From: Pseudomonas moorei
GTDB lineage: Bacteria; Pseudomonadota; Gammaproteobacteria; Pseudomonadales; Pseudomonadaceae
Direction of reading: 5' to 3'
NCBI RefSeq assembly: GCF_008801475.1
Contig: NZ_VZPP01000015.1
Location: 1-64,000 of the forward strand
Length of the DNA stretch: 64,000 bases
Part shown: in pieces, positions 1,000-62,798 of the stretch
Numbering within the stretch: position 1 is the first letter of the stretch
Layout of the letters: each line of letters opens with the position of its first letter
Notes under the pieces: generated by a model
Databases searched by the model: none
Told to the model about the DNA's origin: nothing
Seen by the model: only the letters and a program-made list of their open reading frames with translations
Made by a program: the position numbers and the translations under genes

Positions 1000-1017
1000 C
1001 ATCGTCCGTTCAGACGT
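1000..1017 (-). promoter_or_regulatory. TAGTC-N5-GGACGATG element, copy 1
   Basis: Reads ACGTCTGAACGGACGATG on the minus strand, 11 of 13 consensus positions. It ends 66 bp upstream of the crotonase start at 933 and points towards it. The core TCTGAACGGACGATG is shared with the copies at 30375 and 57687. Confidence 0.7.
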
Positions 1018-11005: not shown

Positions 11006-11023
11006 TAGTCTTTCCGGACGATG
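11006..11023 (+). promoter_or_regulatory. TAGTC-N5-GGACGATG element, copy 2
   Basis: TAGTCTTTCCGGACGATG, a 13/13 match. It ends 66 bp before the DUF1329 start codon at 11090. Confidence 0.85.
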
Positions 11024-13878: not shown

Positions 13879-13918
13879 GGCAATTACCTTCTTGTTTTTA
13901 TGGTGGGAAATGGGCCGC

Positions 13919-14386: not shown

Positions 14387-14406
14387 GACTGTCTCCTGTT
14401 GTGCAT

Positions 14407-14862: not shown

Positions 14863-14884
14863 GTGAAGCCTCCTGGGGGGACAC

Positions 14885-15601: not shown

Positions 15602-15619
15602 GAGTTCTCCAGCCTGCGT

Positions 15620-16807: not shown

Positions 16808-17916
16808 AAGACCTCCGCGACTGCAGACACTTTTACAACCCGGGTGGTGGGGTGGCATTGCTCCTGGGCGCCGACCCAGCGCAGGCACAGGGTGCCTTGG
16901 CGTACGCCGGCGGTTTGAAGCCAGTTGCTTATCCCGGGGTCCAGCTCACTGAGTACCAGGGTCACTCCACCGTTATCGTCGTAGCGGGCCTGGTGCTTGT
17001 TGAAGCAGATTTTGTGGTAGCGGTAGTCCAGCGATTCCATCCAGTAGTTATTGATCTGCAAGTTCCAGAAGTCGCACTCCGGCACCTTGTCGATATGGAT
17101 GACCAGCGCTTCATCGGCGCCCAGCGCCCAGTGCGAGTGGTAGTAGAAAATGTTCGGATCACCGCCCACTGACTGGCAGAGCGCCTGGTTGGCCGGGGGC
17201 AGTTGATTGCTGTGCGGCAGGTAGCTTTCGCTCCAGTCGGCGAACAACCTGGCGGTGTTCTCCACGAAGCTGGAGACCCGAGCCAGGCCTTGCTGAAAAG
17301 TTGCCGGGTCAAGGGCTTGCGGCCTGGCATCGGTGCCAATCCGTTCAATGCTCAGCTTGGCAGGCACTTCGATCCCACGGTCAAGAAACGTCTGACGCAC
17401 GATCAGTGCGTTGGTGGTGTCTTCCATTTTCAGCCAGTTGCCAGGTTGCGGCTCGCGGCTGAGGGTGATTTCGAAGTAACCCTGGGCATCAACCTGTAAC
17501 TGGCTGGCGTCGATGAAACCGGTCTGGATCAGGGTGCCGTCGGTTTCATACCCGCCTTTCTGGGTACCAAAGCTCAGGTAAGCGACACTGCCGCGCTGGC
17601 CTTTGATGCGATAGTCCAACGTGCCGTTCAGGCGCGAGTATTCATAGAGGTTGTCCGGGTTGTCGGCACCAATTTTAGCGGTCTCGTGTGAGGTCTTGAA
17701 GAAACTGGGAAATGCCGGATCGGCAAATTCGATGTGCATCTCCAGGCCAATGCGTAGCAAGCGCGTGAGGTAGCGGAAGCCTTCGGCGCGGGTGGCTGCA
17801 TCGGCGGGTGCTTCGGGGCGCAGAATCTGCTCGCCGCAGCGCTTTAGGTGATCGCAGAACATGGCCCAGGTCTGGCCACTCAACAACTGTTGTTCGTCAA
17901 TAGAGCTGATTGTCAT
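16804..17916 (-). CDS. DUF1214 domain-containing protein
   Basis: A 370-residue protein with a C-terminal DUF1214-like region (YYHSHWALGADEALVIHIDKVPECDFWNLQINNYW). No signal peptide or membrane segment is seen, so it is likely cytoplasmic. Its stop codon overlaps the sulfotransferase start, and it is the first gene of the minus-strand block running down to 12546. Proteins of this kind are uncharacterised; tight coupling suggests it works with the sulfotransferase or on its product. Confidence 0.75.
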   Translation of the reverse strand: MTISSIDEQQLLSGQTWAMFCDHLKRCGEQILRPEAPADAATRAEGFRYLTRLLRIGLEMHIEFADPAFPSFFKTSHETAKIGADNPDNLYEYSRLNGTLDYRIKGQRGSVAYLSFGTQKGGYETDGTLIQTGFIDASQLQVDAQGYFEITLSREPQPGNWLKMEDTTNALIVRQTFLDRGIEVPAKLSIERIGTDARPQALDPATFQQGLARVSSFVENTARLFADWSESYLPHSNQLPPANQALCQSVGGDPNIFYYHSHWALGADEALVIHIDKVPECDFWNLQINNYWMESLDYRYHKICFNKHQARYDDNGGVTLVLSELDPGISNWLQTAGVRQGTLCLRWVGAQEQCHPTTRVVKVSAVAEVL

Positions 17917-18012
17917 TGTTAGACTCTCTTGATTAGGCGAATCCGGGCTGAAAGCACCCCCGCAGAGGCGCCCGAGCCAGATTCATCGGCCCCTGACAGG
18001 GCGCGTTCAAAT

Positions 18013-18028
18013 GCCCGGCGAACCGGGC
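18013..18028 (-). other. Hairpin just after cysNC
   Basis: GCCCGG-cgaa-CCGGGC, 8 nt downstream of the cysNC stop on the minus strand. It has no T-run, so it is only a weak candidate terminator. Confidence 0.4.
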
Positions 18029-18035
18029 GCCGGGG

Positions 18036-19949
18036 TTAGAGTTCCTTACTGATGAAGCCGCGCTCGATCAGCACCGCGATGATCCGATCCACTGCACCCT
18101 CCGGCGTCAGCTTGCTGGTCTGGATATGGATATCTGGCTTGCTCGGCACCTCATAAGGCGAGTCAATGCCTGTGAAGTTTTTCAACTCGCCACGGCGGAC
18201 TTTCTTGTACAGGCCTTTGGGGTCGCGCTCTTCAGCCACGGCCAGCGGCGTGTCGACGAAGATTTCGATGAACTCGCCGTCCTGCAGCAGTCCACGCGCC
18301 ATCTCGCGCTCGGAGCGGAACGGCGAGATGAAGGCGGTCAACACGATCATCCCGGCATCCACGAACAACTTGGACACCTCGGCCACCCGCCGGATGTTCT
18401 CTACCCGGTCGGCATTAGTGAAACCCAGGTCGCGGTTCAAACCGTGACGCACGTTGTCGCCGTCGAGCAAGTAGGTGTGCCGGCCGCGTGCGTACAGGCG
18501 GGTTTCCAACAGGTTGGCGATAGCCGATTTGCCAGCGCCCGACAAGCCGGTGAACCACAGCAGTACCGGCTGCTGGCCCATCTGTTCGGCGCGTGCCTTC
18601 TTGTTCACATCCACGTGCTGCATATGGATGTTCTGTGAGCGACGCAGGGAGAACTCGATCAGGCCGGCGCCGACGGTGGCGTTGGACAGACGGTCAATAA
18701 GGATAAAGCTGCCGGTTTCACGGTTGCTCTTGTAGGGATCGAAAGCGATCGGCTGGCTGGTGAAGAGGTTGCACACGCCGATCTCGTTCAACGCCAGTTC
18801 CTTGGCCGCCAAGTGCTCCATGGTGTTGACGTTGACCTTGTACTTGGGCACTGCCAAGGTGACCGACAGCGTCTTGCCGCCGATCTTCATCAGGTAGGGG
18901 CGGCCGGCGAGCATAGGCTGTTCGTGCATCCAGATCAGGCTGACCTGGAACTGATCGGCCACACTGGCCGGGTCTTCTGCAGTGGACAGAACATCGCCGC
19001 GGCTGCAATCGACTTCGTCGGTCAGGGTCAGGGTGATGGACTGGCCGGCCACGGCTTGCTGCAGATCACCATCGAGGGTCACGATGCGCGAGATTCGACT
19101 CTCTTGTCCGGCCGGCAACACCCGTACCCGGTCGCCAGGACGAATCATCCCGCTGGCGATGGTGCCGGTGAAACCACGGAAATCGAGGTTGGGGCGGTTG
19201 ACCCACTGCACCGGCATGCGAAACGACAGTTTCTGCTGGTGCGCCTCGTCGATCTCGACGGTTTCCAGGTAGCCCATCAGCGTGGTGCCGCGATACCAAG
19301 GCATGTGCTCGCTCTGCTCGGTGATGTTCTCACCCCGCAGCGCGGACATCGGGATGGCGGTGACATCCTGAAGATTGATCTGCTTGGCGAAGGCGCGATA
19401 GTCATCGACGATGGCGTTGAAGACTTTCTCCGAGTAGTCCATCAAGTCCATCTTGTTGACGGCCAGGACCACCTTGCGAATGCCGATCAGCGAAGCCAGA
19501 AAGCTATGGCGCCGGGACTGTGTCAGCACGCCGCGTCGGGCGTCGATCATCACCACGGCCACGTCGGCCGTGGAAGCACCGGTGACCATGTTGCGGGTGT
19601 ACTGCTCATGGCCAGGTGTATCGGCAACAATAAACTTGCGCCGTTCCGTGGAGAAAAAACGGTAGGCCACGTCGATGGTAATGCCTTGTTCACGCTCGGC
19701 GGCCAGGCCGTCCACCAACAGCGCGAAGTCGAGTTCGCCACCCTGGGTGCCGTCTTTTTTCGAGTCGGCTTCCAGCGCTTCCATCTGGTCTTCGAAGAGC
19801 ATTTTCGAATCGTAGAGCAAGCGTCCGATCAGCGTGCTCTTGCCATCGTCCACGCTGCCACAGGTAATGAAACGCAGCAGGCTCTTGTGCTCGTGGGCCT
19901 TGAGGTATTGCCCGATATCCTCGGCAATCAAGTCAGATACGTGTGCCAT
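18036..19949 (-). CDS. cysNC: Bifunctional sulfate adenylyltransferase subunit 1 / APS kinase (CysNC, NodQ-like)
   Basis: A 637-residue fusion. Residues ~20-450 are the CysN GTPase with P-loop GSVDDGKST (31-39), DTPGHEQY and NKMD motifs; residues ~460-637 are the CysC APS kinase with P-loop GLSGAGKS. It couples GTP hydrolysis to APS formation by CysD and then phosphorylates APS to PAPS. Start at 19949 overlaps the cysD stop (TGATG). The gene lies next to a sulfotransferase, a SnoaL/BaiE-like block and cysQ, so PAPS supply for sulfonation is a likely role besides assimilation. Confidence 0.95.
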
Positions 19950-20848
19950 CAGAAATACCCCTCTTGTTTTTTCTTCTCCATCGATGCAGCCGAGTCGTGG
20001 TCGATCATTCGCCCTTGACGCTCGGACGTGCGGGTCAGCAGCATTTCCTGAATGATCTTGGGCAGGGTGTCGGCATTGGACTCGACGGCGCCGGTGAGCG
20101 GGTAGCAACCCAGAGTGCGGAAGCGCACATTGCGTATCATCGGTACTTCACCCGGGTTGAGTGGCATACGGGCGTCATCGACCATGATCAGCATCCCGTC
20201 ACGCTCGACCACCGGGCGCGGCGCGGCGAAATACAGCGGTACGATCGGGATATTTTCCAGATAGATGTATTGCCATATGTCCAACTCGGTCCAGTTGGAC
20301 AAAGGGAACACGCGGATCGACTCGCCCTTGTGTTTACGCGTGTTGTACAGGTGCCAGAGCTCTGGACGCTGGTTCTTCGGGTCCCAGCGGTGCTGATCGG
20401 AGCGGAAGGAGAAAATCCGTTCCTTGGCACGTGATTTTTCTTCGTCGCGGCGTGCGCCGCCGAAGGCCGCGTCAAAACCGTAGTGATCGAGTGCCTGTTT
20501 CAGGCCTTCGGTTTTCATGATGTCGGTATGGATCTGCGACCCGTGCTTGAACGGGCTGATGCCCATTTCAATGCCTTCGGGGTTGGTATGGGTCAGCAGG
20601 TCGACGTTCAGTTTGGCGACCATCTGATCGCGGAAGCGATACATCTCCTGGAACTTCCAGGTGGTGTCGACATGCAGCAATGGGAAGGGCGGCTTGGCCG
20701 GGTAGAAGGCCTTCATGGCAAGGTGCAGCATGACCGCACTGTCCTTGCCGATGGAGTAGAGCATGACCGGGTTGTCGGAATCTGCGACAACCTCGCGCAT
20801 TGCCTGGATGCTTTCGGCTTCCAGTCGTTGCAGGTGGGTAAGCGTCAT
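19949..20848 (-). CDS. cysD: Sulfate adenylyltransferase subunit 2 (CysD, NodP-like)
   Basis: A 299-residue PP-loop ATP-sulfurylase subunit: [14 protein letters not shown] (PP-loop), [27 protein letters not shown] and the C-terminal SERQGR...[14 protein letters not shown] lies 6-7 nt before the ATG at 20848, so this start can be used on its own. Around residues 225-240 ([13 protein letters not shown]) it differs from what I recall of the usual Pseudomonas CysD and is closer to the rhizobial NodP form, hinting at an accessory copy. The frame is open upstream into a transposase-like sequence (see 19949-21865). Confidence 0.93.
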
Positions 20849-21865
20849 AGATTTTCCTCTCGCTTTTTGTTGTTGTCGTTTATCAACGTACAACTGCTGC
20901 GATTCGGACTTATGCGCGACTTGATGTTTTAACATCAGGTGCAACATCTGCAGCATGGGATCGCGGTGCAGGGTGTTGGCGACTACGGCAGGCGCGTGTT
21001 CGCGCCCATCTTCAGGACAGACGCGCACGGCTTGCTGACTGATGTGGGTTGCCAGTTCGCGGGCACCGTCGAGCATTGCGCTGGCTTCGGGAAGATGGAA
21101 CAGATGCAGGCGTTCGGCGCGTTCGCCGGCCCAGGTGATGAAGGTCGCGGCGCGTTGCCAGTGCATGCCCGAGAGCAGGGCAAAGACTTTGCGGTCGACC
21201 GAGCGATACAAACGGTCGAAGAACGCTTCCAGGTGCGGGGCGCGCAAGCTGTCTTCGTATGGCAGCCAGAGCACCTTGCCGCGATTGCTGACCGCGCGCA
21301 GCACCCCGTAACTGAGTTTGCCCTGATCGTTACGGGCACCGTAGTCATCGATCCAGTGGATCTCGCCGTTCTGCGTACGAGCCTGTTCGAGGATGTCCAG
21401 GTAGGTGCTGCGATACCAACGCTGCACCGCCAGCGAAGCATTCGCGACACGCTTGGCCGGGCGCTCGGCATTGAGCTGCCAGCGTTGCAAATAGTGGGCG
21501 GCGGTGCGTTCTGGCAAGTCGATATCGTGCAGACGCTTGACCAGTGCCTGCATCGCTTCCAGTTGCCATAGCCGGAACGGCAACTGATGCCGTTCCGGCG
21601 GCGTGCTGACCAACAAGTGGTAGATGTTCTGTTCCTGCTCGGCAGACAGACTGCGGCCTTCACCTTGCTTACGCCCGCGCTCCCTTACGGGCACGGCATT
21701 CCAGCCACCGGCCTGCCACGCCTTGTAGGCAGAGATGATCGTCGGCGATGAGAGCCCGGTATCCTGACTGATGGCTTTGAGCGTGCTGCCAGCGATGCGC
21801 AACTGCACGGCGCGCAGACGGAGCTTATTGATCTGTGCAACGGATAACTGGTTGCCGTGGGACAC
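19949..21865 (-). CDS. IS630-like transposase-derived region joined in frame to CysD
   Basis: From 21865 the frame is open without a stop through cysD, giving a 638-residue product. It has a GTG start with AGGAG 5 nt upstream, so it is probably translated. Residues 1-100 are a winged-helix/HTH pair of IS630 type ([22 protein letters not shown]). Residues ~165-290 resemble the IS630 DDE domain: IHWIDDYGA keeps an Asp, but the usual D-N-x-x-x-H reads SGMHWQ and the final L-N-x-x-E reads LDGARE. The nuclease is therefore likely dead. It may be a relic, a domesticated DNA-binding domain, or a true fusion. Residues 340-638 are CysD. Confidence 0.6.
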
Positions 21866-22855: not shown

Positions 22856-24202
22856 TCAGACAGTGGCGGCAGCGCTCGCCGGCTCGGCGATGAGCTCGCC
22901 TGGTCGGATCAGTTGTGCGCGATAGCGGGGCAGGGCCATGGCCAGGAACAGCGCGGCAAGCAACACCAGGGAGACCGACGCCGCCAGTGCATAACGCAGT
23001 GCTTCGCCACCCAGGCTTGGTGCGAAGTAGTCACTGAGCATGCCGATGACCAGCGGACCGAAACCGACGCCAAGCATGGTCATTGCCATGACAAAGATGG
23101 AGGAGGCCTGGCCCAGGTATTTCGGTGCAAACAAATGGCTGATCGCCCCCAGGCATGGTGTCGCCCACCAGGTGCCAAAGAAGCTGAACACGCTGTAGAA
23201 AAGGAAAGCTGTGGGTACTTGCATGCCGCCAATATGGAAGGCAATGCCGGGTGGCCAGAGAAAGAACGCCAGGCTCGAGGGAATGCAGATCAGGGTGGCC
23301 AGCAGCGGCACGCCGATCTGCCAGGCCGGATCACGCCGGGCCATGCGGTCGGTCAGCATGCCGCAGGTCAAAGTGCCGACAGTGGCCCCGATGCCACCGG
23401 CTACGCCGACCAGAACTCCTGCTTCCTGCAGGTTCAAACCGTGGGAGCGGATGAGAAAACTCGGGCTCCAGGTGCCGATGGCATAACCGGCAATCGCCCA
23501 GGCGCCTCCGGTAAGCACCAGCCAGACGAAGGACGGGGTCTGGAATAATCGCGCCAGCGTCTTGGCCCAGCCATCCTGGGTGCCCATGTCCTGTGCGAGA
23601 TGTGCTGGCGCTGCAGCGGCGGATTTTGGCGTCCTTACCGTCAGCCAGAGCAGTAGACCGAGAAAGATGCCCGGTGCACCGAACACTAGAAAGGCGAAGC
23701 GCCAGCCGTGATGCTGGGCGATCCAGCCACCCAGGCCAAGACCGAAAATCGTACCTAGGGCGGAACCGACCATCAGTATCGACAGGGCCGTTGAGCGGCG
23801 CTCAGGCGGATACAGTTCGCAAACCATGGCCACCGAAGGCGCAGTGCCGCCTGCCTCACCGACGGCCACGCCCATCCGCGCCAGGACCAGTGTCAGGAAG
23901 CTGCCGACCATCCCACAGGCCATGGTCATCACACTCCAGGCGATGCAACAGGCGGCGATCACCGGCTTACGGCCGATACGGTCGGACAGACGTCCCAGAG
24001 GGAAACCGAAAAGGCCGTAGAAAACCGCGAAGGTCACGCCGGAAAGCAAGCCGATTTCTGTATCGGATATGCCGAACTCAGCCTTTACCGGCTCGATCAG
24101 GATCGCCATCAACTGCCGGTCGATGTGGTTGAAGACATAAATACAGGCCAGCACGAACAATGCGTAGTGCGTGCGCCAGGTGGTGCGGATGGGTGACATC
24201 AC
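22856..24202 (-). CDS. MFS transporter, copy 1
   Basis: A 448-residue major-facilitator protein with about 12 hydrophobic segments. It carries the signature between TM2 and TM3, GFPLGRLSDRIGRKPV. Start is GTG at 24202 with GGAG 8 nt upstream, the same spacing as in its paralogue at 28989-30314; an ATG follows directly. It is divergent from an acyl-CoA ligase, with one regulatory element facing each gene. Likely role: uptake or efflux of a steroid acid across the inner membrane. Direction and substrate are unknown. Confidence 0.87.
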   Translation of the reverse strand: MMSPIRTTWRTHYALFVLACIYVFNHIDRQLMAILIEPVKAEFGISDTEIGLLSGVTFAVFYGLFGFPLGRLSDRIGRKPVIAACCIAWSVMTMACGMVGSFLTLVLARMGVAVGEAGGTAPSVAMVCELYPPERRSTALSILMVGSALGTIFGLGLGGWIAQHHGWRFAFLVFGAPGIFLGLLLWLTVRTPKSAAAAPAHLAQDMGTQDGWAKTLARLFQTPSFVWLVLTGGAWAIAGYAIGTWSPSFLIRSHGLNLQEAGVLVGVAGGIGATVGTLTCGMLTDRMARRDPAWQIGVPLLATLICIPSSLAFFLWPPGIAFHIGGMQVPTAFLFYSVFSFFGTWWATPCLGAISHLFAPKYLGQASSIFVMAMTMLGVGFGPLVIGMLSDYFAPSLGGEALRYALAASVSLVLLAALFLAMALPRYRAQLIRPGELIAEPASAAATV

Positions 24203-24262: not shown

Positions 24263-24280
24263 CGACGTCCGTTCAGACTA
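24263..24280 (-). promoter_or_regulatory. TAGTC-N5-GGACGATG element, copy 3
   Basis: TAGTCTGAACGGACGTCG on the minus strand, 11/13. It lies 60 bp upstream of the MFS start at 24202. Confidence 0.7.
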
Positions 24281-24362: not shown

Positions 24363-24380
24363 TAGTCTTATCGGACGATG
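24363..24380 (+). promoter_or_regulatory. TAGTC-N5-GGACGATG element, copy 4
   Basis: TAGTCTTATCGGACGATG, 13/13, ending 65 bp before the ligase start at 24446. Divergent partner of copy 3. Confidence 0.85.
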
Positions 24381-26368: not shown

Positions 26369-26386
26369 TAGTCCTGTCGGACGATG
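26369..26386 (+). promoter_or_regulatory. TAGTC-N5-GGACGATG element, copy 5
   Basis: TAGTCCTGTCGGACGATG, 13/13, ending 118 bp before the SDR start at 26505. Confidence 0.82.
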
Positions 26387-28988: not shown

Positions 28989-30314
28989 TCAGGCTGTCGC
29001 GGCCTGGACCGGTGTGACAAGCGGGGCGGGGTTCTTGATCTGTTGCCGGTAACGTGGCAATGCCAGGGTCAGGAACACGCTGGCCAGCACCAGCATCGAC
29101 ACCGATGAGGCGAGCGCATAACGCAGCGATTCGGTGCCCAGGGTCGACCTGAAGAAATCACTGAGCATGCCCACCAGCAGCGGTCCGACACCGACACCCA
29201 GCAGGGTCATGGACATCACAAAAATGGCCGTGGCCTGAGCCAGCCGCTTAGCCGGGAACAGGTGGGTAATGGCGCTCAGGCACGGTGTTGCCCACCACAC
29301 ACCAAAGAACGCAAACACGCTGTAGAACAGGAATGCTTGCGGCACGGCGATGCTGCCGATATGGAACGCCGTGCCTTGAGGCCAGAGGAAATACGCCAGG
29401 GCGAATGGAATGCTGATCAGTGTGCCCAACAGCGGCACACCGATTTGCCAGCCAACATTGCGTCTCGCCATGCGGTCGGTGAGCATGCCGCAGATCAGCG
29501 TGCCAATGGCCGCTCCACCGCCGCCTACCACGCCTACCAGGAATCCGGCCTGTTGCATGTTGAGGCCGTGGGAGCGGATCAGGAAACTCGGGCTCCAGGT
29601 GCCAATGGCGTAGCCGGCAATGGCCGCCGCGCCGCCGGTGAGCACCAGCCACAGAAACGACGGCATGCGAAACAGCTCGACGAGGGTCTTGAGCCAACCG
29701 TCATGCTGCAGTGCGGCACTGCCCGGTGGTACGACCCGCTTGGGCGCACGCACAGTCAGCAGCAGTAGCAGGCCGAGGACAATGCCGGGAGCACCGATCA
29801 ACAAGAAGGCGTAGCGCCAGCCGTGGTGTTGGGCGATCCAGCCGCCCAGACCCAGGCCGACAACCGCTCCCAGGCTGGAGCCGAGCATCAGGAATGCCAG
29901 GGCCGTGGAGCGGCGATTGGCCGGGTACAAATCCGAGACCATGGCCACCGACGGCGCCGTGCCGCCGGCCTCTCCGACAGCGACGCCAACGCGTGCGAGG
30001 ACCAGGGTCAGAAAGTTGCCGGCCACGCCGCAGAGCATGGTCATCACGCTCCAGGCGATGCAGCTGAAGGCGATCACTGGTTTGCGCCCGATGCGGTCTG
30101 ACAGGCGTCCCAACGGGAAGCCGAACACCGTATAGAACACCGCGAAGGTCACCCCCGAAAGCAGGCCGATGTCGGTATCGGAAATGCCGAACTCGAGCTT
30201 CACCGGCTCAATCAGAATCGCCATCAACTGACGGTCGATGTAGTTGAAGACATAAATCATGGCAAGCACGAATAGCGCGTAGTGCGTTCGCCATGTCACA
30301 GGGGATTGGTTCAC
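28989..30314 (-). CDS. MFS transporter, copy 2
   Basis: A 441-residue MFS permease closely related to the one at 22856: both share TWRTHYALFVLA near the N terminus, GFPLGRLSDRIGRKPV, and GTWSPSFLIRSHGLN. Start GTG at 30314 with GGGAG 8 nt upstream; an apparent longer reading to 30419 would run through a regulatory element. It is divergent from the OYE-ligase operon. Probably moves a related steroid acid; differences from copy 1 may reflect substrate preference. Confidence 0.87.
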   Translation of the reverse strand: MNQSPVTWRTHYALFVLAMIYVFNYIDRQLMAILIEPVKLEFGISDTDIGLLSGVTFAVFYTVFGFPLGRLSDRIGRKPVIAFSCIAWSVMTMLCGVAGNFLTLVLARVGVAVGEAGGTAPSVAMVSDLYPANRRSTALAFLMLGSSLGAVVGLGLGGWIAQHHGWRYAFLLIGAPGIVLGLLLLLTVRAPKRVVPPGSAALQHDGWLKTLVELFRMPSFLWLVLTGGAAAIAGYAIGTWSPSFLIRSHGLNMQQAGFLVGVVGGGGAAIGTLICGMLTDRMARRNVGWQIGVPLLGTLISIPFALAYFLWPQGTAFHIGSIAVPQAFLFYSVFAFFGVWWATPCLSAITHLFPAKRLAQATAIFVMSMTLLGVGVGPLLVGMLSDFFRSTLGTESLRYALASSVSMLVLASVFLTLALPRYRQQIKNPAPLVTPVQAATA

Positions 30315-30374: not shown

Positions 30375-30392
30375 CATCGTCCGTTCAGACCA
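30375..30392 (-). promoter_or_regulatory. TAGTC-N5-GGACGATG element, copy 6
   Basis: TGGTCTGAACGGACGATG on the minus strand, 12/13, identical to copy 14. It lies 60 bp upstream of the MFS start at 30314. Confidence 0.8.
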
Positions 30393-30434: not shown

Positions 30435-30452
30435 TAGTCTTGTCGGACGATG
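30435..30452 (+). promoter_or_regulatory. TAGTC-N5-GGACGATG element, copy 7
   Basis: TAGTCTTGTCGGACGATG, 13/13, ending 116 bp before the OYE-like gene at 30569. Divergent partner of copy 6. Confidence 0.84.
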
Positions 30453-38777: not shown

Positions 38778-38795
38778 TAAGCCATTTGGACGATG
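38778..38795 (+). promoter_or_regulatory. GGACGATG element, copy 8 (variant left half)
   Basis: TAAGCCATTTGGACGATG. The right half is intact; the left half is weak. It shares GCCA(T/A)(T/A)TGGACGATGTG with copy 13. It ends 142 bp before the start at 38938. Confidence 0.6.
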
Positions 38796-38937: not shown

Positions 38938-39924
38938 ATGCGCTCTATGATCGGTTATGCAGTCTGCCTGATGGTCGCCTTGACCATTGGCTACACGTTT
39001 TCCCCCAAAAAACCACCGCAAGAGGAACTGTTGGCCACGCGCCCCGACCGGGTGCAGATCAACGGCCTGCTCAATCTTGGCTCGCGTGTGGTCGCCGTGG
39101 GCGAGCGTGGCAGCATCCTGCTCAGTGATGATCAGGGCGTTAGCTGGCAGCCTGCCCGCATCGAAATGCAACGCAATGCCACCCTGACTGCCGTGGTGGC
39201 ACTGGATGACAAACGCCTTTTGGCCGTCGGGCATGACGGCTGGATCCTGCGGTCCCTGGACGCCGGGAGCAGTTGGCAGGAAATGCGCCACGACAGCGAT
39301 CTGGGCGAACCGCTGCTGGGCATCTGGACTGGCGGTGGCGACACCGTCATGGCGTTCGGCAGCTTCGGCAAGTTCTATCAATCCCTCGATGCCGGGCAGA
39401 CCTGGACTGCGCAGCCCCTGGACATCGATAACGCGCACCTGAACAGCATGGCCGGTGGCAATGATGGCCGGCGCATGTTGGTGGGCGAGCAGGGCCTGGT
39501 ACTGCGCACGGTTGACGCCGGCCAGCACTGGCAGACCTTGCCGGCCTTCTATAGCGGCTCGCTGTTCGGCATCGTGCGTCTGAGTGCGGATAACTGGGTG
39601 ACCTACGGCATGCGCGGGCATGTATTCGTCAGCCACGATTTCGGCGACAGCTGGACCCAGATCAATGTGGGCAATCAATTGCCGCTGTACGGCCATGTGT
39701 TGTTGCCCGATCACTCGGGGCTGGTGATCGTCGGTGCCGGCAGTTCAGTGGTACGTCTGGATGCGCAGGGTGCACTGGTCGGTACCGGGCGCCTGGCCGG
39801 ACTCGGTACGTTGACCTCGGCGACGATGGTTGGCTCGCGTCTGCTGGTGGGTGGCGAGCGTGGGGTATTGCAGGGTTCAGGTGGCAGCGTCGCTGCCGTA
39901 TTGACCACACAGGTCACCCAGTAA
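38938..39924 (+). CDS. YCF48/BNR-repeat periplasmic protein
   Basis: A 328-residue protein with an N-terminal hydrophobic segment (MRSMIGYAVCLMVALTIGYTF) that acts as a signal or anchor, then at least five Asp-box repeats (S-x-D-x-G-x-x-W): LLSDDQGVSW, LRSLDAGSSW, YQSLDAGQTW, LRTVDAGQHW, FVSHDFGDSW. This predicts a beta-propeller. Start at 38938 has AGGAG 8 nt upstream. It precedes an RND/MMPL gene by 14 bp; YCF48-RND pairs recur in hydrophobic-compound degraders and probably form an envelope transport complex. Confidence 0.83.
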   Translation: MRSMIGYAVCLMVALTIGYTFSPKKPPQEELLATRPDRVQINGLLNLGSRVVAVGERGSILLSDDQGVSWQPARIEMQRNATLTAVVALDDKRLLAVGHDGWILRSLDAGSSWQEMRHDSDLGEPLLGIWTGGGDTVMAFGSFGKFYQSLDAGQTWTAQPLDIDNAHLNSMAGGNDGRRMLVGEQGLVLRTVDAGQHWQTLPAFYSGSLFGIVRLSADNWVTYGMRGHVFVSHDFGDSWTQINVGNQLPLYGHVLLPDHSGLVIVGAGSSVVRLDAQGALVGTGRLAGLGTLTSATMVGSRLLVGGERGVLQGSGGSVAAVLTTQVTQ

Positions 39925-39938
39925 AAGAGAGGCAGGCA

Positions 39939-42362
39939 ATGAATCAAGGAAAACACTGGGTGACGCGCTGCGTCGAAACGTGTGCGGATCACCTGATGGC
40001 CTGGCGCAAAGGACTGCTGCTGCTGTTTGTTCTGGTGACACTGGGCCTGGGTTACAGCGCCACCCATACGCAACTGGATCCGGGATTCAACAAGCAGATC
40101 CCGGTGCGTCATGAATACATGATCAATTTTCTCAAGTTCAGCCGTTACTTCACCGGCGCCAACCGTTTCCTGGTCAGCGTGCGCTGGAAAGGCGAGGGTG
40201 ACATTTATAACGCCGAGTACCTTGATACCCTGCGTAAAGTCACCGACGACGTGTTTTTCATCTCCGGGGTCAGTCGCCCCAGCGTGACGTCGCTGTTTAC
40301 CGCCAACGTGCGCTACATCGAAATCACCGAGGAAGGATTCTTTGGCGACGTGGTGGTGCCACCGCGTTTCAGCGGCACCCCTGAGGATCTGGCGCAGGTG
40401 CGCAGTAACACGGCGGCCTCCGGGCAGGTCGGCCGCCTGGTGGCCAACGACCTGAAGTCCGCCATGGTCCGCGCCGACCTGCAGGACACCGACCCCAAGA
40501 CCGGTCAGCCGGTCTCCTATGTCGACATCGCCAAGCGCCTGGAAGAAATCCGCGCCAAGTACGACAGTCCTGATATCGAGATCAACATCGTCGGTTTTGC
40601 CAAGCTGGTGGGCGATGTGGTCGAAGGGCTGAACACGGTGATCGGCTTTTTTGTCGTGGCGTTCGTGATCACTGGATTGCTGTTGTGGTTGTATTCGCGT
40701 TCCCTGCGCCTGACCGTGGTGGCACTGCTGGTCGCGTTGTTGCCGGTGGTCTGGTTGCTGGGTCTGTTGCCAATGCTGGGATTAGGCATTGATCCGATGT
40801 CGATCCTGGTGCCGTTCCTGATCTTCTCCATCGGTGTATCCCATGCGGTACAGATGACCAACGCCTGGAAGCAGGACGTGTTGGCTGGCAGTGCGTCCAG
40901 GGAAGCGGCGCGCTCGGCATTTTGCAAGATTTTCATCCCCGGTTCCCTGGCGTTGCTGATGAACGCACTGGGGTTCGCGGTGATCATGCTGATCGACATT
41001 CCGATCGTTCACGAACTGGGAGTGACTGCCTGCATCGGCGTGATGTTGATGATCATCACCAACAAACTGATGTTGCCGATCATCATTTCCTACCTCAGCC
41101 TGGAACCCGCGCTGTTGCGCCGGGCACAAACCCGGCCGGCGGGCAAGCATCGCCTGTGGTGGCGCCTGTCGGCGCTGGCTGAACCGGGGCCGGCACTCGG
41201 GGTATTTGCCGTCAGTCTGCTGTTGCTGTTGGCCGGGGCCTACAAGGCTCGTGACCTGGCCGTGGGTGATATCGGCGCGGGCGCGCCGGAGCTGCGGGCC
41301 GATTCGCGCTACAACACGGACAACGGCAAGATCATCAGCAGCTACTCCATCGGGCTCGATGTGATGTCGGTGTTCGTCCAGGTCAAGGGGGTCGACGAAG
41401 GTTGCCTGTCGCCAACGGTGATGCGTGCGGTGGAAGCCTTCGATTTCCGTATGCGCACGGTCTCGGGCGTGCAGTCGATCCAGAGCGTGGCGGACATGGG
41501 CAAGCGGGTGATTGCCGGCAACAACGAAGGCAATCCTCGCTGGGCGGCGATTCCAGGGTCGCCCCGTGGCCTGAGTCAGGGTGCGCGAGCCTATATGCCG
41601 GATGACGGAATGGTCACCGACGGCTGCCAGCAGATGCAGATCCTGGTGTTCCTTGCCGACCACGAAGGCTCCACCGTCAGTCATGCGATTGCCGAAGCCA
41701 AGCGGATTATTACCCAGGTCAGCTCGCCGCAAGTCGAGTTCCTCCTGGCCGGTGGCAACGTTGGGGTAATGGCGGCCTCCAACGAGGCGGTCAAGCGCGC
41801 TGAAGTCATCATGCTGGGGGCGCTGTTCGGTTCGGTGGCGCTGTTTTGCTGGCTGACCTTCCTGTCGATCCGTGCGGTGCTGTGCATTCTCGTGCCGCTG
41901 GCTATTGTCGCGATCCTGTGTAATGCACTGATGACCATGCTCGGGATCGGCCTGAAAGTCGCCACCTTGCCGGTGATGGCGCTGGGCGTAGGTGTGGGCG
42001 TCGACTACGGCATTTACCTGTACGAACGCATCCAGCACGAAATGCTGCGCGGTTCCAACCTGCGTGAAGCGTTCTATGAGGCCATGTGCCAACGCGGCAC
42101 GGCCGCGGTATTCACCGCCGTGACCATGTCCATTGGCGTCTGTACCTGGGCGTTCGCACCGTTGAAGTTCCAGGCTGACATGGGCGTGTTGCTGTCGTTC
42201 ATGTTCCTGGTCAACGTGTTGGGGGCGATTTTCCTCCTGCCGGCGTTGGCGGCCTGGTTCAATCGCGGACGACCGCTGGTCACCGAACGGGTACGTCAGC
42301 CTGCGGCGCCGCAAGGTCAGTTCCGGCTGAAAAACAGCCCGGCTGCGCGGGACTCCCGATAA
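39939..42362 (+). CDS. RND superfamily (MMPL-type) transporter
   Basis: An 807-residue membrane protein with the two-fold RND layout: TM1, a periplasmic loop (~50-240), a block of TM helices (~250-390), TM7, a second loop (~450-625) and a second TM block (~630-780). MMPL-type motifs include FSIGVSHAVQM and ALGVGVGVDYGIYLYERI, with the conserved Asp of the proton path. Coupled to the YCF48-like gene. It likely moves steroid or lipid through the inner membrane or periplasm. Direction is not evident. Confidence 0.87.
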   Translation: MNQGKHWVTRCVETCADHLMAWRKGLLLLFVLVTLGLGYSATHTQLDPGFNKQIPVRHEYMINFLKFSRYFTGANRFLVSVRWKGEGDIYNAEYLDTLRKVTDDVFFISGVSRPSVTSLFTANVRYIEITEEGFFGDVVVPPRFSGTPEDLAQVRSNTAASGQVGRLVANDLKSAMVRADLQDTDPKTGQPVSYVDIAKRLEEIRAKYDSPDIEINIVGFAKLVGDVVEGLNTVIGFFVVAFVITGLLLWLYSRSLRLTVVALLVALLPVVWLLGLLPMLGLGIDPMSILVPFLIFSIGVSHAVQMTNAWKQDVLAGSASREAARSAFCKIFIPGSLALLMNALGFAVIMLIDIPIVHELGVTACIGVMLMIITNKLMLPIIISYLSLEPALLRRAQTRPAGKHRLWWRLSALAEPGPALGVFAVSLLLLLAGAYKARDLAVGDIGAGAPELRADSRYNTDNGKIISSYSIGLDVMSVFVQVKGVDEGCLSPTVMRAVEAFDFRMRTVSGVQSIQSVADMGKRVIAGNNEGNPRWAAIPGSPRGLSQGARAYMPDDGMVTDGCQQMQILVFLADHEGSTVSHAIAEAKRIITQVSSPQVEFLLAGGNVGVMAASNEAVKRAEVIMLGALFGSVALFCWLTFLSIRAVLCILVPLAIVAILCNALMTMLGIGLKVATLPVMALGVGVGVDYGIYLYERIQHEMLRGSNLREAFYEAMCQRGTAAVFTAVTMSIGVCTWAFAPLKFQADMGVLLSFMFLVNVLGAIFLLPALAAWFNRGRPLVTERVRQPAAPQGQFRLKNSPAARDSR

Positions 42363-42462
42363 CCAAAAATAAACCTGAGGGGTCTATTGTGGAGTTCGCA
42401 AGCGATAGGGAAACTGATGCGCAGGCCCCTGTGAATGTTTCGCAGGCAAGCAGTAGTCAAGA

Positions 42463-42545: not shown

Positions 42546-43781
42546 ATGCAAGATGGTGTCTTGACCCATGAAGCCCTGGCCAGCCTTGGCCTCGACCTTA
42601 CGCGCTACAACCAGTTGGTGGGCGAAATCTACGAAGGCGCCCTCGATCCGAAACTGATGGCCCACGCACTCAAAAGCTTTCTCAAGCTCTATGATGCCAA
42701 CTTTGTCACCCTGATCCTGCGGGTGCCGGATCAGCCCGATACCGGTGTGATGATTATCGCCGGTGACATCGAGGGGGCCGGTGATGTCTGCTACATGACT
42801 TACCCGCAAACCAATTCGCCGTTCTCCAACCAGCCGCTGGACTGTGTATTCACGGTCGATGACATCATGAGCTCCGCGGAATGGGAACACAGTGCCTACT
42901 TCAAGGCGTTCTGCGGCCCCAATGATGTGTACCACGTGATGTGCGCAGACATTTCCACCCCGGACGGCGGCAAACTGCGTTTTCGCGTCACCCGCCCCGA
43001 AACTGCCCCCAACTTCTCTGCCAGCGAGCGGTCGCTTTGCGCCAGTTTCCTGCCACATCTGCGTCGTGCCTCACAGTTGCACAACCTTTTGGACCGCAGT
43101 GAATCGCTGAGTGAGTTGTACTCCCAGGCCATTAGCCGTTTATCGGTGGCGACCCTGGTGCTCGACGAGAGTGGCAGTGTGTTGCAAATCAACCCGGTGG
43201 CCCAGGAAATCCTGGCCCGTTCCGATGGCCTGAAACTGGTGGGCGGGCGCCTGGAGGCGACTTACCCCAGCGATAACCGTGAACTGCAACGCTTGATTCG
43301 CGGCGCATTCTGCCCGGATGCCCCGAAAAGCGCCGAGGCCATGTCGGTGACGCGGCCTTCGGGGCTGGTCAATCTCGGCGTGGTGGTCGAATCGATTCCG
43401 TCCCTGGACTGGGCCGAGGAGAAGGGGCAGCCAGCGGCGCTGGTGTACATTCGTGATGCGTCGAGCAGATCCTTGGCCAGCGAGGTGGTGACCAAACAGC
43501 TGTTCAACCTGACCAAGGCCGAAACCGCCCTGGCGATGGAACTCGCCAATGGCTTGTCCCTGGAGGAAGCGGCCGAGGTCCTGAATATCCGGCGTAATAC
43601 TGCGCGGGCGCACTTGCGCTCGATTTTCTCCAAGACCGGTGTGCGGCGCCAGACCGAACTGGTGCGCATCATGCTCAACAGTGTGGTGGCGTTGGGCAAG
43701 CCGCAACTGGCGTTGAAAGTGACCGAGAAAATCAAGGTGCCGACACTGCAACTGGCGGTGCCTATCTATCGCCACGCCTGA
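42546..43781 (+). CDS. LuxR-type transcriptional regulator
   Basis: A 411-residue protein with a C-terminal LuxR-type helix-turn-helix (about residues 318-385: LTKAETALAMELANGLSLEEAAEVLNIRRNTARAHLRSIFSKTG, given in part) and an N-terminal sensor-like region without autoinducer-domain hallmarks. It resembles the TeiR-type LuxR activator of testosterone degradation in Comamonas in size and layout. Start at 42546 is preferred over an upstream in-frame codon because GAGGATAGG precedes it. It is the only clear dedicated transcription factor in the window, so it is the first candidate to bind the 18-bp repeated element. Confidence 0.83.
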   Translation: MQDGVLTHEALASLGLDLTRYNQLVGEIYEGALDPKLMAHALKSFLKLYDANFVTLILRVPDQPDTGVMIIAGDIEGAGDVCYMTYPQTNSPFSNQPLDCVFTVDDIMSSAEWEHSAYFKAFCGPNDVYHVMCADISTPDGGKLRFRVTRPETAPNFSASERSLCASFLPHLRRASQLHNLLDRSESLSELYSQAISRLSVATLVLDESGSVLQINPVAQEILARSDGLKLVGGRLEATYPSDNRELQRLIRGAFCPDAPKSAEAMSVTRPSGLVNLGVVVESIPSLDWAEEKGQPAALVYIRDASSRSLASEVVTKQLFNLTKAETALAMELANGLSLEEAAEVLNIRRNTARAHLRSIFSKTGVRRQTELVRIMLNSVVALGKPQLALKVTEKIKVPTLQLAVPIYRHA

Positions 43782-43844: not shown

Positions 43845-43862
43845 TAGTCCGCACAGACGATG
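43845..43862 (+). promoter_or_regulatory. TAGTC-N5-GGACGATG element, copy 9
   Basis: TAGTCCGCACAGACGATG, 12/13, ending 53 bp before the HSD start at 43916. TAGTCCGCA is shared with copy 12. Confidence 0.8.
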
Positions 43863-48481: not shown

Positions 48482-49255
48482 TCAGCCGGGCCAGACCGAT
48501 GTCTCGGCACCGCCATCGACATCAATGATCTTGCCGGTCACCCAGGCCGAAGCGGGGCTGGCCAGGTACAGCGCGGCGGCGGCGATGTCTTGCGGGGTAC
48601 CCAGGCACTTGAGTGGGGTGTTGGCCTCCATCACCTCGCGCATGGCTGCAGGCATTACGCCGTTCAGCGCTTCGGTCAGGGTAGGGCCGGGCGCCACGGC
48701 GTTGACCCGGATCTGTGGCGCGAAGTCCTGGGCCAGCAAGCGGGTCAGATGGCTGAGGGCGGCCTTGGCCGTGCCGTAGGCGCTGAAGTGGCGCTGGGCA
48801 TAGCGTGCGGCCACCGAGCTGACATTGATGATGTTGCCGCCGCCGGCGTCGCGCATGAGCGGCACGCACAACTGACAGAAGGCATAGCTGGTGGTGACGT
48901 TGAAATCCAGCATCTGGGCGAACTGTTCAGGTGTCGTGATCAATGCATCGCTCGGTCCGCCACCGCCAACGTTGTTCACCAGATGAGTGATCCGGCCCAT
49001 TTGTTCAACGCTTTGACGCACCAGCGCCTGGCGTTGCTCGGCATCGTTGACGTCACAGGTAAAAGCCAGGGCGCGCCGGCCCAGGCCTCGAACCTCTTCG
49101 GCCACTGCCTGGACTTCGTCCAGCGAGCGTGACGAGCACACGACATCAGCGCCGGCTTCGGCATACGCCAGGGCAATCGCCCGACCAATGCCGCGGCCGC
49201 TGCCAGTGACAATGGCGACGCTGCCGTGCATGTAGAAACGTTGCAAAATACTCAT
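48482..49255 (-). CDS. Short-chain dehydrogenase/reductase
   Basis: A 257-residue SDR: TGSGRGIGRAIALAYAEAGADVVCSSR, NNVGGGGPSD, and NIINVSSVAARYAQRHFSAYGTAKAAL with Ser/Tyr/Lys; IDVDGGAE near the C terminus. The glycine-rich NNVGGGGP resembles the 7-alpha-hydroxysteroid dehydrogenase (HdhA) group, so 7-alpha-HSD is a possible but unproven identity. Start at 49255 is preferred because an upstream in-frame reading would begin inside a regulatory element. Has its own element and terminator, so likely monocistronic. Confidence 0.83.
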   Translation of the reverse strand: MSILQRFYMHGSVAIVTGSGRGIGRAIALAYAEAGADVVCSSRSLDEVQAVAEEVRGLGRRALAFTCDVNDAEQRQALVRQSVEQMGRITHLVNNVGGGGPSDALITTPEQFAQMLDFNVTTSYAFCQLCVPLMRDAGGGNIINVSSVAARYAQRHFSAYGTAKAALSHLTRLLAQDFAPQIRVNAVAPGPTLTEALNGVMPAAMREVMEANTPLKCLGTPQDIAAAALYLASPASAWVTGKIIDVDGGAETSVWPG

Positions 49256-49318: not shown

Positions 49319-49336
49319 CATCGTCTCATTGGACTA
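49319..49336 (-). promoter_or_regulatory. TAGTC-N5-GGACGATG element, copy 10
   Basis: TAGTCCAATGAGACGATG on the minus strand, 12/13; 63 bp upstream of the SDR start at 49255. A degenerate plus-strand copy (TAGCGAACCGCGACGATG) overlaps its edge at 49335-49352. Confidence 0.8.
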
Positions 49337-49544: not shown

Positions 49545-49562
49545 TAGTCCGCATTGACGATG
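49545..49562 (+). promoter_or_regulatory. TAGTC-N5-GGACGATG element, copy 12
   Basis: TAGTCCGCATTGACGATG, 12/13, ending 73 bp before the hsaA start. Confidence 0.8.
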
Positions 49563-56726: not shown

Positions 56727-57560
56727 TTAGCCGTGCTGCAGGAACTCGATGCAGCTGCGGTTGAACAGTTCGCGGTGTTCCACCTGAACCCAATGTCCGC
56801 AGCGGTTGAGCACGATGAAGCGGGCATTCGGTGCGCCGTCGATGATGCGCTGGGCGCCGCTGATCGGGTTGAAGTGATCGTTGTTGCCCCAGAAGCCGAG
56901 GATCGGGCACTGGATTTCACCCAGGCGCGCTTCCATGTTCGGCACCATCATTGTGCTGAACAGGCTCTTCGGTTGCGTTACGGCCACCGCCACGCGTTCT
57001 TGCAGCAGGCTTTGCGGCAGGATCGAATCATCGAACAACTGCAGGCTCATCATGCTGCGCATCTCTTGCATGCCGATGGGGCCTGCGTTGAACAGGCTGA
57101 CCATGCGCACGATGCCTTCCATCTTGAAGTAGGTTTCCCGCTCCTCGACACCGCCCGGTGCCAGCAGGATCAGGCTCTGGGGCAGTTGCGGCAGGCGCAG
57201 GGCCAGACCCAGGGCAATTGCGCCACCCAGCGAGTTACCCAGCACCGTGCAGCGCTGCACGCCAACGGACTCGAGGAACGCCGCCACGCAGTCGACGAAG
57301 AAATCCAGGTTGTACTGGACGTCCTCGGGTTTGTCCGAGCGACCGAAGCCCGGCAGGTCAAGCACGAGGTTGCGATAGCCCGCGGCGACAAGCTGTGGGT
57401 AGTTGCCCTTGAAGTTGCTGAAGCCACTGGCGCCCGGCCCGCTGCCGTGTAGCCACAGCACCACGGGGCCTGCGCCCTCATCCAGATAGTGCAGGCGCAG
57501 GCCGTTGGGCAGGGTCGCGTAATGGCCGACGGGCAGGGGCAGGTCTACGGGTTGGTTCAT
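56727..57560 (-). CDS. hsaD: Meta-cleavage product hydrolase, 4,9-DSHA hydrolase (HsaD/TesD-like)
   Basis: A 277-residue alpha/beta hydrolase. Nucleophile Ser110 in GNSLGGA, Asp228 in GNNDHF, His256 in CGHWVQVEH, and oxyanion HGSGPGASG near the N terminus are typical of BphD/HsaD. It cleaves the C-C bond after HsaC opens ring A, giving the C/D-ring acid and a dienoate for HsaE. The start at 57560 has GGAG 6 nt upstream. It lies alone on the minus strand, with an element at 57687. Confidence 0.9.
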   Translation of the reverse strand: MNQPVDLPLPVGHYATLPNGLRLHYLDEGAGPVVLWLHGSGPGASGFSNFKGNYPQLVAAGYRNLVLDLPGFGRSDKPEDVQYNLDFFVDCVAAFLESVGVQRCTVLGNSLGGAIALGLALRLPQLPQSLILLAPGGVEERETYFKMEGIVRMVSLFNAGPIGMQEMRSMMSLQLFDDSILPQSLLQERVAVAVTQPKSLFSTMMVPNMEARLGEIQCPILGFWGNNDHFNPISGAQRIIDGAPNARFIVLNRCGHWVQVEHRELFNRSCIEFLQHG

Positions 57561-57686: not shown

Positions 57687-57704
57687 CATCGTCCGTTCAG
57701 ACCA
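57687..57704 (-). promoter_or_regulatory. TAGTC-N5-GGACGATG element, copy 14
   Basis: TGGTCTGAACGGACGATG on the minus strand, 12/13, identical to copy 6; 126 bp upstream of hsaD. It is 8 bp from copy 15, which faces the other way. Confidence 0.8.
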
Positions 57705-57712
57705 CGCGGCGG

Positions 57713-57730
57713 TAGTCCCATCGGACGATG
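57713..57730 (+). promoter_or_regulatory. TAGTC-N5-GGACGATG element, copy 15
   Basis: TAGTCCCATCGGACGATG, 13/13, with an extended GTCC-catc-GGAC dyad. It ends 90 bp before the SDR start at 57821. Confidence 0.85.
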
Positions 57731-62478: not shown

Positions 62479-62798
62479 GGGGGCTGTCTCTGCAAAGCGG
62501 ATGGATGCGTGAAGTCTGGGCTGGTGGCGGCGGTGAACGAATCACTAAAACGGACTAGGGCCATTCTGCTGCTTGCGTAGCCCGTGAGGGAGCTGGTTTG
62601 TTCCGTGCGGCGTTCCGACGAAGGTGGCGGGTCAGTCAACATCAACGTTGAATGTGATTGCCTCCTCGCGAGCGAGCCCGTTCCCGCAAAAAGCGCTGCG
62701 AAGCGTTGCGGTGCTTAGTCTCAACGGACGATGAAGCGGTGCGCGGCGCTTTGCACAATGTTCGCCACGAAACCCATTCAGCCACCGAGGACCAAGGC
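62479..62798. other. 320-bp divergent spacer before hsaC
   Basis: Contains a REP-like fragment (cctcgcgagcgagcccgttcc at 62663-62683, given here in full as a short element) and the regulatory element at 62716. No gene is supported. Confidence 0.5.
62716..62733 (+). promoter_or_regulatory. TAGTC-N5-GGACGATG element, copy 16
   Basis: TAGTCTCAACGGACGATG, 13/13, ending 65 bp before the hsaC start at 62799. Confidence 0.85.

Follow-up and report, generated by a model that had tools for sequence, protein, structure and literature searches.

In the actinobacteria, large sets of steroid-degradation genes are regulated by KstR and KstR2, TetR repressors described as being released by coenzyme A (CoA) esters (PMC6678751). 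In Comamonas testosteroni, the described regulator is TesR/TeiR, a LuxR-type positive regulator of steroid degradation (PMC6678751, PMC6895838, PMC13101464) encoded at the end of the tesB-tesR cluster (PMC13101464), and a statement cited in PMC6895838 places tesR-like genes only in C. testosteroni. Pseudomonas stutzeri Chol1 carries two TeiR-like genes, and deletion of one of them strongly delays cholate degradation according to unpublished data given in a 2021 review, which calls the regulation of bile-acid degradation in Proteobacteria "still largely unknown" (PMC8399759). The locus discussed here, comprising the first 64,000 nucleotides of contig NZ_VZPP01000015.1 (C15) of Pseudomonas moorei (assembly GCF_008801475.1; hereafter the window), contains a steroid-degradation cluster, a recurrent element built on GTC-N6-GAC, and a gene at 42546-43781 (+) for a LuxR-type protein of 411 amino acids, LuxR1, whose paralogue LuxR2 is encoded further along the same contig. 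Within the open-licence literature, judged mostly from titles and the starts of abstracts, no description of this element or of a TeiR/TesR operator was found.

The element is very probably read by the LuxR family, as argued by the co-occurrence of the two across genomes, by the promoter geometry and by a joint shift of recognition helix and half-site, and LuxR1 is probably one of two paralogous activators that share it at promoters of class II geometry. The original prediction had cast LuxR1 as master regulator of the element; the role of the family stands, but that of LuxR1 as sole master does not, since LuxR2 has an identical recognition helix, and a single master is improbable.

LuxR1 resembles Comamonas TeiR/TesR in being a LuxR-type regulator inside a steroid cluster, with a positive role that is proposed for LuxR1. 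The likeness is one of regulator type and proposed role, and a membrane, polar or kinase role has been reported for TeiR. Moreover, TesR ends the tesB-tesR cluster, whereas LuxR1 follows a YCF48 and an RND transporter gene, so that the TesR layout, with the regulator as last gene of the tes cluster, fits LuxR2 (75247-76449) rather than LuxR1, to which a TeiR-like layout was first ascribed. The Chol1 strain likewise has two LuxR-type regulators in one Pseudomonas bile-acid cluster (PMC8399759); there the evidence is the delay caused by one deletion, whereas here it is the element, the promoter geometry and the sharing of the helix. Partial redundancy of two LuxR paralogues would fit the Chol1 delay. 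KstR and KstR2 also control large steroid-degradation gene sets, but as TetR repressors, whereas LuxR1 is of the LuxR type and a proposed activator.

The element and its promoters

The dyad GTC-N6-GAC, on which the original prediction was built, does occur more often in the window than chance would give (35 matches where 18.6 are expected, a number reached by none of 100 shuffles), but it is merely the core of a longer and polar site of 18-20 bp, TAGTCY-N4-RGACGATG. With up to two mismatches, TMGTCYNNNNRGACGATG has 21 matches in the window against 2.0 expected, a number reached in 0 of 100 shuffles, some of the matches being one site read on both strands, as both-strand counts enter perfect palindromes twice. 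Allowing at most one mismatch, the 6.47-Mb genome has 10 copies of TAGTCYNNNCGGACGATG, none of them off this contig, and the strict form TAGTCYNNNNRGACGATG has 10 matches in this genome and 0 in the reversed control. Distant relatives often bear a complete left half and hence the perfect palindrome CATCGTC-N6-GACGATG, an inverted repeat of the kind at which LuxR-type proteins would be expected to bind as dimers. The looser pattern TAGTCN6GACGATG is less discriminating, as it matches in 367 of the 398 genus genomes, many of the matches shown having G at position 6; one genome (G157) has 8 loose matches without a LuxR homologue, yet 0 strict matches. Beyond contig C15, the loose pattern has three matches in the P. 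moorei genome, two on contig C4 before steroid-type genes and one at C3:460119.

A position weight matrix (PWM) trained on 61 promoters, all from other genomes, was scanned across 144 kb of the contig, giving 20 matches above a score of 8 compared with 5 in the reversed sequence, where the maximum was 13.0. Excluding one intragenic match (13.1), 13 sites exceed this control maximum, and all 13 lie 54-127 bp ahead of a gene start and are oriented towards the gene. A chance pattern as the source of the element was rejected by the shuffles, the reversed controls and this orientation. Counting as window sites those that score at least 10 and lie outside genes, 14 are recovered rather than the 16 promoters first proposed. 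Three of these (24263, 38778 and 1000) fall inside the reversed-control range and are retained on position or conservation.

1000..1017, minus strand: weak element, 160 bp ahead of gene 148-840 (-); PWM 10.5, inside the control range
11006..11023, plus strand: element, 91 bp before DUF1329 gene 11114; PWM 29.6
24263..24280, minus strand: element, 64 bp before MFS gene 22856-24199 (-); PWM 12.8, just below control maximum
24363..24380, plus strand: element, 66 bp before AMP-binding (acyl-CoA synthetase-type) gene 24446; PWM 32.2
26369..26386, plus strand: element, 119 bp before SDR gene 26505; PWM 30.6
30375..30392, minus strand: element, 115 bp before MFS gene 28989-30260 (-); PWM 14.2
30435..30452, plus strand: element, 117 bp before flavin oxidoreductase gene 30569; PWM 29.3
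38778..38795, plus strand: variant element TAAGCCATTTGGACGATG, heading the YCF48-RND-luxR unit; PWM 10.6, inside the control range, conserved
43845..43862, plus strand: element TAGTCCGCACAGACGATG, 63 bp past the stop of luxR and 54 bp before SDR gene 43916; PWM 27.4
49319..49336, minus strand: element, 64 bp before SDR gene 48482-49255 (-); PWM 22.6
49545..49562, plus strand: element, 74 bp before HsaA-like gene 49636; PWM 24.8
57687..57704, minus strand: element, 127 bp before alpha/beta hydrolase gene 56727-57560 (-); PWM 18.1
57713..57730, plus strand: element, 91 bp before SDR gene 57821; PWM 27.7
62716..62733, plus strand: element, 66 bp before tesB/hsaC-like gene 62799; PWM 25.6

The geometry of these promoters was assessed on 72 non-redundant copies (flanks less than 60% identical) among 110 exact copies of TAGTCN6GACGATG. 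A sigma70 -10 hexamer, defined as at least four of six matches with A at position 2 and T at position 6, begins at element position 39 or 40, that is, 38-39 bases past the first base of the element, in 62 of the 72 copies, and such hexamers occur at a background of 0.4% per position over 56 other offsets between 20 and 79. Nine of the 12 copies from the P. moorei genome conform. Taking the hexamer as -12 to -7, from which the start sites are deduced, the centre of the dyad falls at -42.5 or -43.5, and element position 51, where transcription is predicted to start, carries A in 31 of 72 copies. The best -35 hexamer at a spacing of 16-18 bp matches at only two or three of six positions in 60 of these 62 promoters and at four in the other two. 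The lux box is itself centred at about -42.5. With a site near -42, reckoned from predicted starts, replacing the -35 box and a -10 hexamer at fixed distance from it, the element stands in place of the -35 box in what reads as a class II, lux-box-like and activator-dependent layout.

The cluster that would make up most of the regulon contains HsaC/TesB-like, HsaA-like and HsaE/F/G-type genes, HsaC (gene 62799) and HsaA (gene 49636) being the best NCBIfam matches, both below their cut-offs. It also encodes acyl-CoA synthetases, transporters of the MFS and RND types and numerous beta-oxidation proteins. Sites beyond the window were located by sequence first and their genes inspected after. One, at C15:77987, precedes kshA (KshA_C, 217 bits). 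Two on contig C4 are 2-mismatch sites, chosen for keeping TAGTC-N6-GACGATG; they precede a 3-ketosteroid dehydrogenase (KstD)-like gene, which scores 578 bits against a cut-off of 788, and a flavin reductase gene whose matches include HsaB (133 bits, cut-off 230) and, with a higher score, a hydroxyphenylacetate reductase.

Between the latter two genes, the C4 locus (499001-517418, L007) holds at 8920-13809 genes for an aldehyde dehydrogenase, a methyl-accepting chemotaxis receptor and an amidase, which possibly function in steroid chemotaxis and bile-salt deconjugation.

Co-occurrence and the sister branch

Across the genus, a LuxR homologue at E<=1e-30 is found in 69 of 398 genomes, where at most the four best first-look candidates were scored per genome, and 68 of these 69 contain 3-10 strict elements. 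Among the 329 genomes without the homologue, 302 have no strict element, 27 have one or two, and none has three. The single exception among the homologue-bearing genomes (G225) has no elements, and its only homologue is 36% identical, with the changed helix NTARTHLRAIFAKAGV (NTARTHLR). For the Burkholderiaceae, LuxR2 served as query and five candidates were scored per genome. Related genes appear in 102 of 329 genomes at E<=1e-20, many of them weak, and 37 genomes were picked by hand (21 with a strong match, 9 with a weak one, and 7 of the 227 without a match). All 21 with a strong match contain 3-17 matches to the TM- form of the element, all 9 with only a weak match contain none or one, and the seven without a match contain 0, 0, 0, 1, 1, 1 and 5. 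These counts bear on the cited statement that confines tesR-like genes to C. testosteroni, the relatedness here being measured against LuxR1 and LuxR2.

At least one exact TMGTCYNNNNRGACGATG is present in 60 of 80 named loci, compared with none in the reversed control; these loci come from Pseudomonas, Burkholderia, Paraburkholderia, Cupriavidus, Ralstonia, Pandoraea, Collimonas, Marinobacter, candidate Binataceae and others. All three Zavarzinia loci are among the 20 without the element, as are 12 of the 21 loci with the helix NTARTHLR. An element lies within about 0.5 kb after luxR in 20 of 20 loci (L001, L009-L027). A genome that matches Zavarzinia marina at 100% and is no betaproteobacterium (G429) contains 5 strict elements, none of them near its luxR.

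A sister branch of LuxR proteins, termed branch B (L072-L075; 33-36% identical), carries the altered helix NTVRAHLRG. The four loci contain CTTCGTCY-N4-RGACGAAG dyads or near forms and, over 20 kb each, no GACGATG site. In seven of seven genomes (G193, G172, G243, G364, G275, G232 and G458), the branch B luxR has a GACGAAG site no more than 10 kb away, the helix being seen in five. The occurrence of a changed helix beside a changed half-site argues that the LuxR protein, and not a bystander, sets the half-site, and CTTCGTCY-N4-RGACGAAG may possibly constitute a second operator class in the same genomes.

Several further loci of this family deserve mention. In L142, a perfect palindrome CATCGTC-N6-GACGATG (about 8708-8727) lies some 90 bp before a kshA homologue directly upstream of a luxR homologue, with a similar placement in L132, L133 and L146. 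A LuxR homologue of 52% identity is found on Vibrio alfacsensis plasmids H1-H3 of about 174-221 kb, which hints at mobile clusters. The metagenome-assembled genome L136, assigned to candidate Binataceae, encodes a LuxR homologue whose core helix reads NTARAHLR and contains an element, and would place the pair outside Proteobacteria if the bin is clean.

LuxR1, LuxR2 and the luxR1 unit

The features of the luxR1 gene and of its presumed unit are as follows.

38938..39924, plus strand: YCF48/BNR-repeat protein gene, first of the presumed luxR unit (Pfam)
39996..42362, plus strand: RND/MMPL transporter gene, 183 bp before luxR (Pfam MMPL)
42546..43781, plus strand: LuxR1, LuxR-type regulator with GerE domain, 411 amino acids
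42603..43094, plus strand: N-terminal sensor domain, residues 20-183, predicted LuxR autoinducer/GAF fold (AlphaFold2 and structure matches)
43140..43454, plus strand: PAS-like middle domain, residues about 199-303 (weak Pfam PAS; alternating strands and helices in the model)
43482..43697, plus strand: LuxR-type helix-turn-helix (HTH) domain, residues 313-384 (Pfam GerE; model helices 313-384)
43593..43637, plus strand: recognition helix region, residues 350-364, RNTARAHLRSIFSKT, identical in LuxR2

The assignment of 42546-43781 to a LuxR-type protein is confirmed, the open reading frame (ORF) being present and its residues 322-375 matching Pfam GerE, the LuxR HTH family, above the cut-off of 23.5 bits (26.5 bits, E 4.9e-6). 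The longest version of the frame begins at an upstream ATG at 42435. The shorter start is favoured because a start codon is kept at the 42546 position in all 12 aligned sequences (the window and 11 relatives), as ATG in 10 and GTG in 2. Elsewhere in the protein, Pfam PAS matches residues 191-253 weakly (E 0.011, below cut-off), and NCBIfam gives no family at E<=1e-10. A sequence search of the PDB returns weak matches only, the best being the HTH of VpsT (E 0.0035).

An AlphaFold2 model of full-length LuxR1 built from 40 sequences (pLDDT 76.8, pTM 0.57) displays an N-terminal alpha/beta domain, a long helix at 159-198, a PAS-like domain at 201-303 and the HTH domain at 313-384. Residues 1-200 modelled alone reach a pTM of 0.80 and a mean pLDDT of 83, and their top VIA matches are CviR (Z 14.5; 3.2 A over 168 aligned residues) and LasR (Z 13.9; 2.9 A over 156). 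With the full-length model, Foldseek places bacteriophytochromes on top at low TM, and VIA places QscR and LasR there; with the separate N-terminal model, LuxR autoinducer domains come first by a small margin over others. The N-terminal fold is accordingly predicted to be of the autoinducer/GAF type. Like the LuxR, LasR and TraR activators, LuxR1 has a C-terminal GerE HTH, a predicted autoinducer/GAF N-terminus and a putative palindromic site of about 20 bp near -42.5. Unlike them, it bears an additional PAS-like domain, about 100 residues long, between sensor and HTH, matches no autoinducer domain by sequence, is associated with another operator sequence and has a steroid as probable ligand. 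It thus departs from the acyl-homoserine lactone receptor layout, with 411 residues and a PAS-like insert compared with full-length chains of about 225-260 residues among the structural matches, in which the HTH follows the sensor directly.

Residues 350-364 presumably form the DNA-contacting helix, as they do in the family at large. Its core, NT[AS]R[AT]HLR, is present in 78 of the 80 named relatives. Apparent internal stops in homologues of about 40% identity were dismissed, as the ORFs of those fetched are intact (mostly 376 residues) and the alignment had overrun the natural stop.

LuxR2, also a GerE-domain protein, is 62% identical to LuxR1 and is encoded at 75247-76449, about 11 kb beyond the window edge. 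Its stretch NIRRNTARAHLRSIFSKTGVRRQTELVRIMLNSVVALG equals the recognition helix of LuxR1 letter for letter and, because of this identity, the two proteins very probably share their operator. One close copy together with one 60%-identical copy is also found in relatives such as G137, G208 and G252. Within the window, 54 genes lying wholly inside were called with a purpose-built codon model and all were scanned with Pfam at E<=1e-4, revealing no DNA-binding regulator besides LuxR1. For these called genes, the proposal that LuxR1 is the only stand-alone transcription factor in the 64 kb therefore holds. Gene 14885-15601 is the single one of the 54 without any Pfam family.

In all 16 relatives inspected (LuxR 72-95% identical), luxR follows the RND gene, and in 14 of them a YCF48 gene is matched ahead of RND. 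TAAGCCATTTGGACGATG or a near variant heads the unit in all 16, at 110-145 bp before YCF48 in 14 and ahead of RND and luxR in the two without a YCF48 match. The 183-bp gap before luxR contains no element, sigma70-like promoter or terminator by scan. An internal luxR promoter in this gap was discarded as the scan found none; an AT-rich conserved block is present there. The original prediction that no good copy of the element lies upstream of luxR is thus borne out for the gap but not for the variant site at 38778, which heads the two preceding genes, and the argument it drew against simple autoregulation becomes doubtful. If luxR1 is co-transcribed with the unit, it would be under its own weak operator. 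LuxR2, in turn, ends a same-strand gene run that begins with gene 62799 after the strong site 62716 and extends outside the window. Induction is probably self-reinforcing, because each luxR ends a gene run headed by an element.

Mechanism and competing explanations

In the proposed mechanism, LuxR1 and LuxR2 would be LuxR-type activators that respond to a ligand and switch on a regulon for the degradation of steroids of the bile-acid type. A LuxR dimer would bind TMGTCY-N4-RGACGATG (18-20 bp; ideally CATCGTC-N6-GACGATG) centred at about -42.5/-43.5, replace the -35 contact and recruit sigma70 RNA polymerase to the -10 at fixed distance, as LuxR does in class II fashion at the lux box. The signal is probably a steroid or the CoA ester of an intermediate, which the LasR/GAF-like N-terminal domain, and perhaps also the PAS domain, would sense. 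LuxR2 would share the operators of LuxR1 through the identical recognition helix, and the location of both luxR genes at the ends of element-headed runs would amplify their own induction.

A number of observations weigh against this account. The co-occurrence is confounded, as element, luxR and steroid enzymes are co-inherited and the genomes are related, not independent, so that Fisher test values for these counts carry no meaning. Nor is luxR decoupled from cluster-type enzymes in the eight distant loci compared, seven of which contain several homologues of cluster genes and one (L114) a single one in 21 kb besides luxR. One genome without a LuxR match (G712) has five element matches at four scattered places, nine close loci (L028-L036) have no exact element within about 1.5 kb of luxR, and two loci with A-type LuxR (L057, L077) have none in 20 kb. 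Among the P. moorei copies, 3 of 12 lack a -10 hexamer at position 39/40. The sister branch is likewise imperfect evidence. Twelve comparison genomes yield 10 GACGAAG matches in all, five of them one sequence beside the A-type luxR (in 5 of the 12), a branch B luxR also lies near a GACGATG site in G458, a B-like and an A-type luxR occur together with GACGATG sites in L039, and the branch B loci are related and so represent few independent events. The NTARTHLR proteins of Burkholderia are still accompanied by some elements; helix residue 355 alone is therefore not site-determining, and the link between helix and element is loose. As for the sensor, no autoinducer-binding domain is detected in LuxR1 by sequence (Pfam, up to E 1), and a phytochrome PAS-GAF fragment follows close behind in VIA (Z 13.1; 3.6 A over 165 aligned residues). 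With CviR/LasR and GAF folds scoring nearly alike, the class of ligand is not readable from the fold.

The division of labour between the paralogues could also differ, with LuxR2, which occupies the TesR position, as main activator and LuxR1 tuning the response, sensing another ligand or mainly controlling the RND/YCF48 unit and its neighbours. This is possible but on balance unlikely. The identical helix would permit it, LuxR2 ends a tesB-like gene run as TesR does in the described Comamonas tesB...tesR arrangement (PMC13101464), and the reported deletion in Chol1 merely delays degradation (PMC8399759), but element-bearing genomes such as G132 and G256 have a single match, with four candidates scored per genome, and this match is LuxR1-like and follows RND. 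The chance is slim that some other regulator encoded elsewhere and co-inherited with steroid clusters binds the element while the LuxR proteins have a different target. Co-occurrence alone cannot tell luxR apart from the other cluster genes, yet the 54 called genes offer no such candidate besides LuxR1, the element tracks luxR homologues across genera, the promoters are laid out as LuxR-type class II promoters are, and a changed LuxR helix accompanies a changed half-site, though not cleanly.

Slimmer again is the prospect that LuxR represses at the element and is relieved by a steroid signal. A LuxR repressor of the beta-hsd gene has been reported in Comamonas, as cited in PMC6678751, but the same source describes TesR/TeiR as needed for induction, and the replacement of the -35 box is an activator-dependent arrangement. 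That the element serves no regulatory protein, being a repeat, an RNA feature or a chance pattern, deserves almost no credence; short palindromes are common in GC-rich DNA, but the tally of strict matches against the reversed control, the uniform orientation of the 13 best sites towards genes and the -10 at fixed distance already contradict it.

Returning to LuxR1 and LuxR2 as shared activators, the combination of operator, fixed geometry and receptor family names promoters and predicts the regulon in other genomes and on other contigs, as with the kstD-like gene, and two paralogues offer a reason why one Chol1 deletion only delays growth. The operator-receptor pair would also provide a ready part for steroid biosensors. 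A broader proposition, for which the balance is about even, is that an ancient and previously undescribed code for steroid catabolism exists in Proteobacteria, in which solo LuxR receptors with a LasR/GAF-like steroid pocket and an inserted PAS domain read CATCGTC-N6-GACGATG from Pseudomonas to Burkholderiales, Marinobacter and candidate Binataceae, pairs of paralogues couple that operator to two sensors, and a sister branch recognises the one-base variant GACGAAG. If true, such regulons would be readable from genomes by sequence alone and, if the LasR-like pocket binds steroids, a quorum-sensing receptor fold would be used for sensing a vertebrate-made nutrient.

Also inside the steroid cluster, the minus strand at 13087-21865 encodes a 3'-phosphoadenosine 5'-phosphosulfate (PAPS) reductase-domain protein, a fusion of a GTPase with adenosine 5'-phosphosulfate (APS) kinase for sulfate activation, a sulfotransferase, and SDR, SnoaL-like and DUF1214 proteins. 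The PWM and dyad scans showed no element ahead of the sulfur-activation genes in the window. A possible role of the set is sulfation of a steroid hydroxyl to give a leaving group. Homologues of several of its genes lie beside the LuxR loci of Cupriavidus (L143) and Pandoraea (L156), and in the former, from Cupriavidus pinatubonensis, two divergent near-elements ending in GACGAAG and GACGAGG are found at 2301-2365 beside the sulfur-activation gene homologues.

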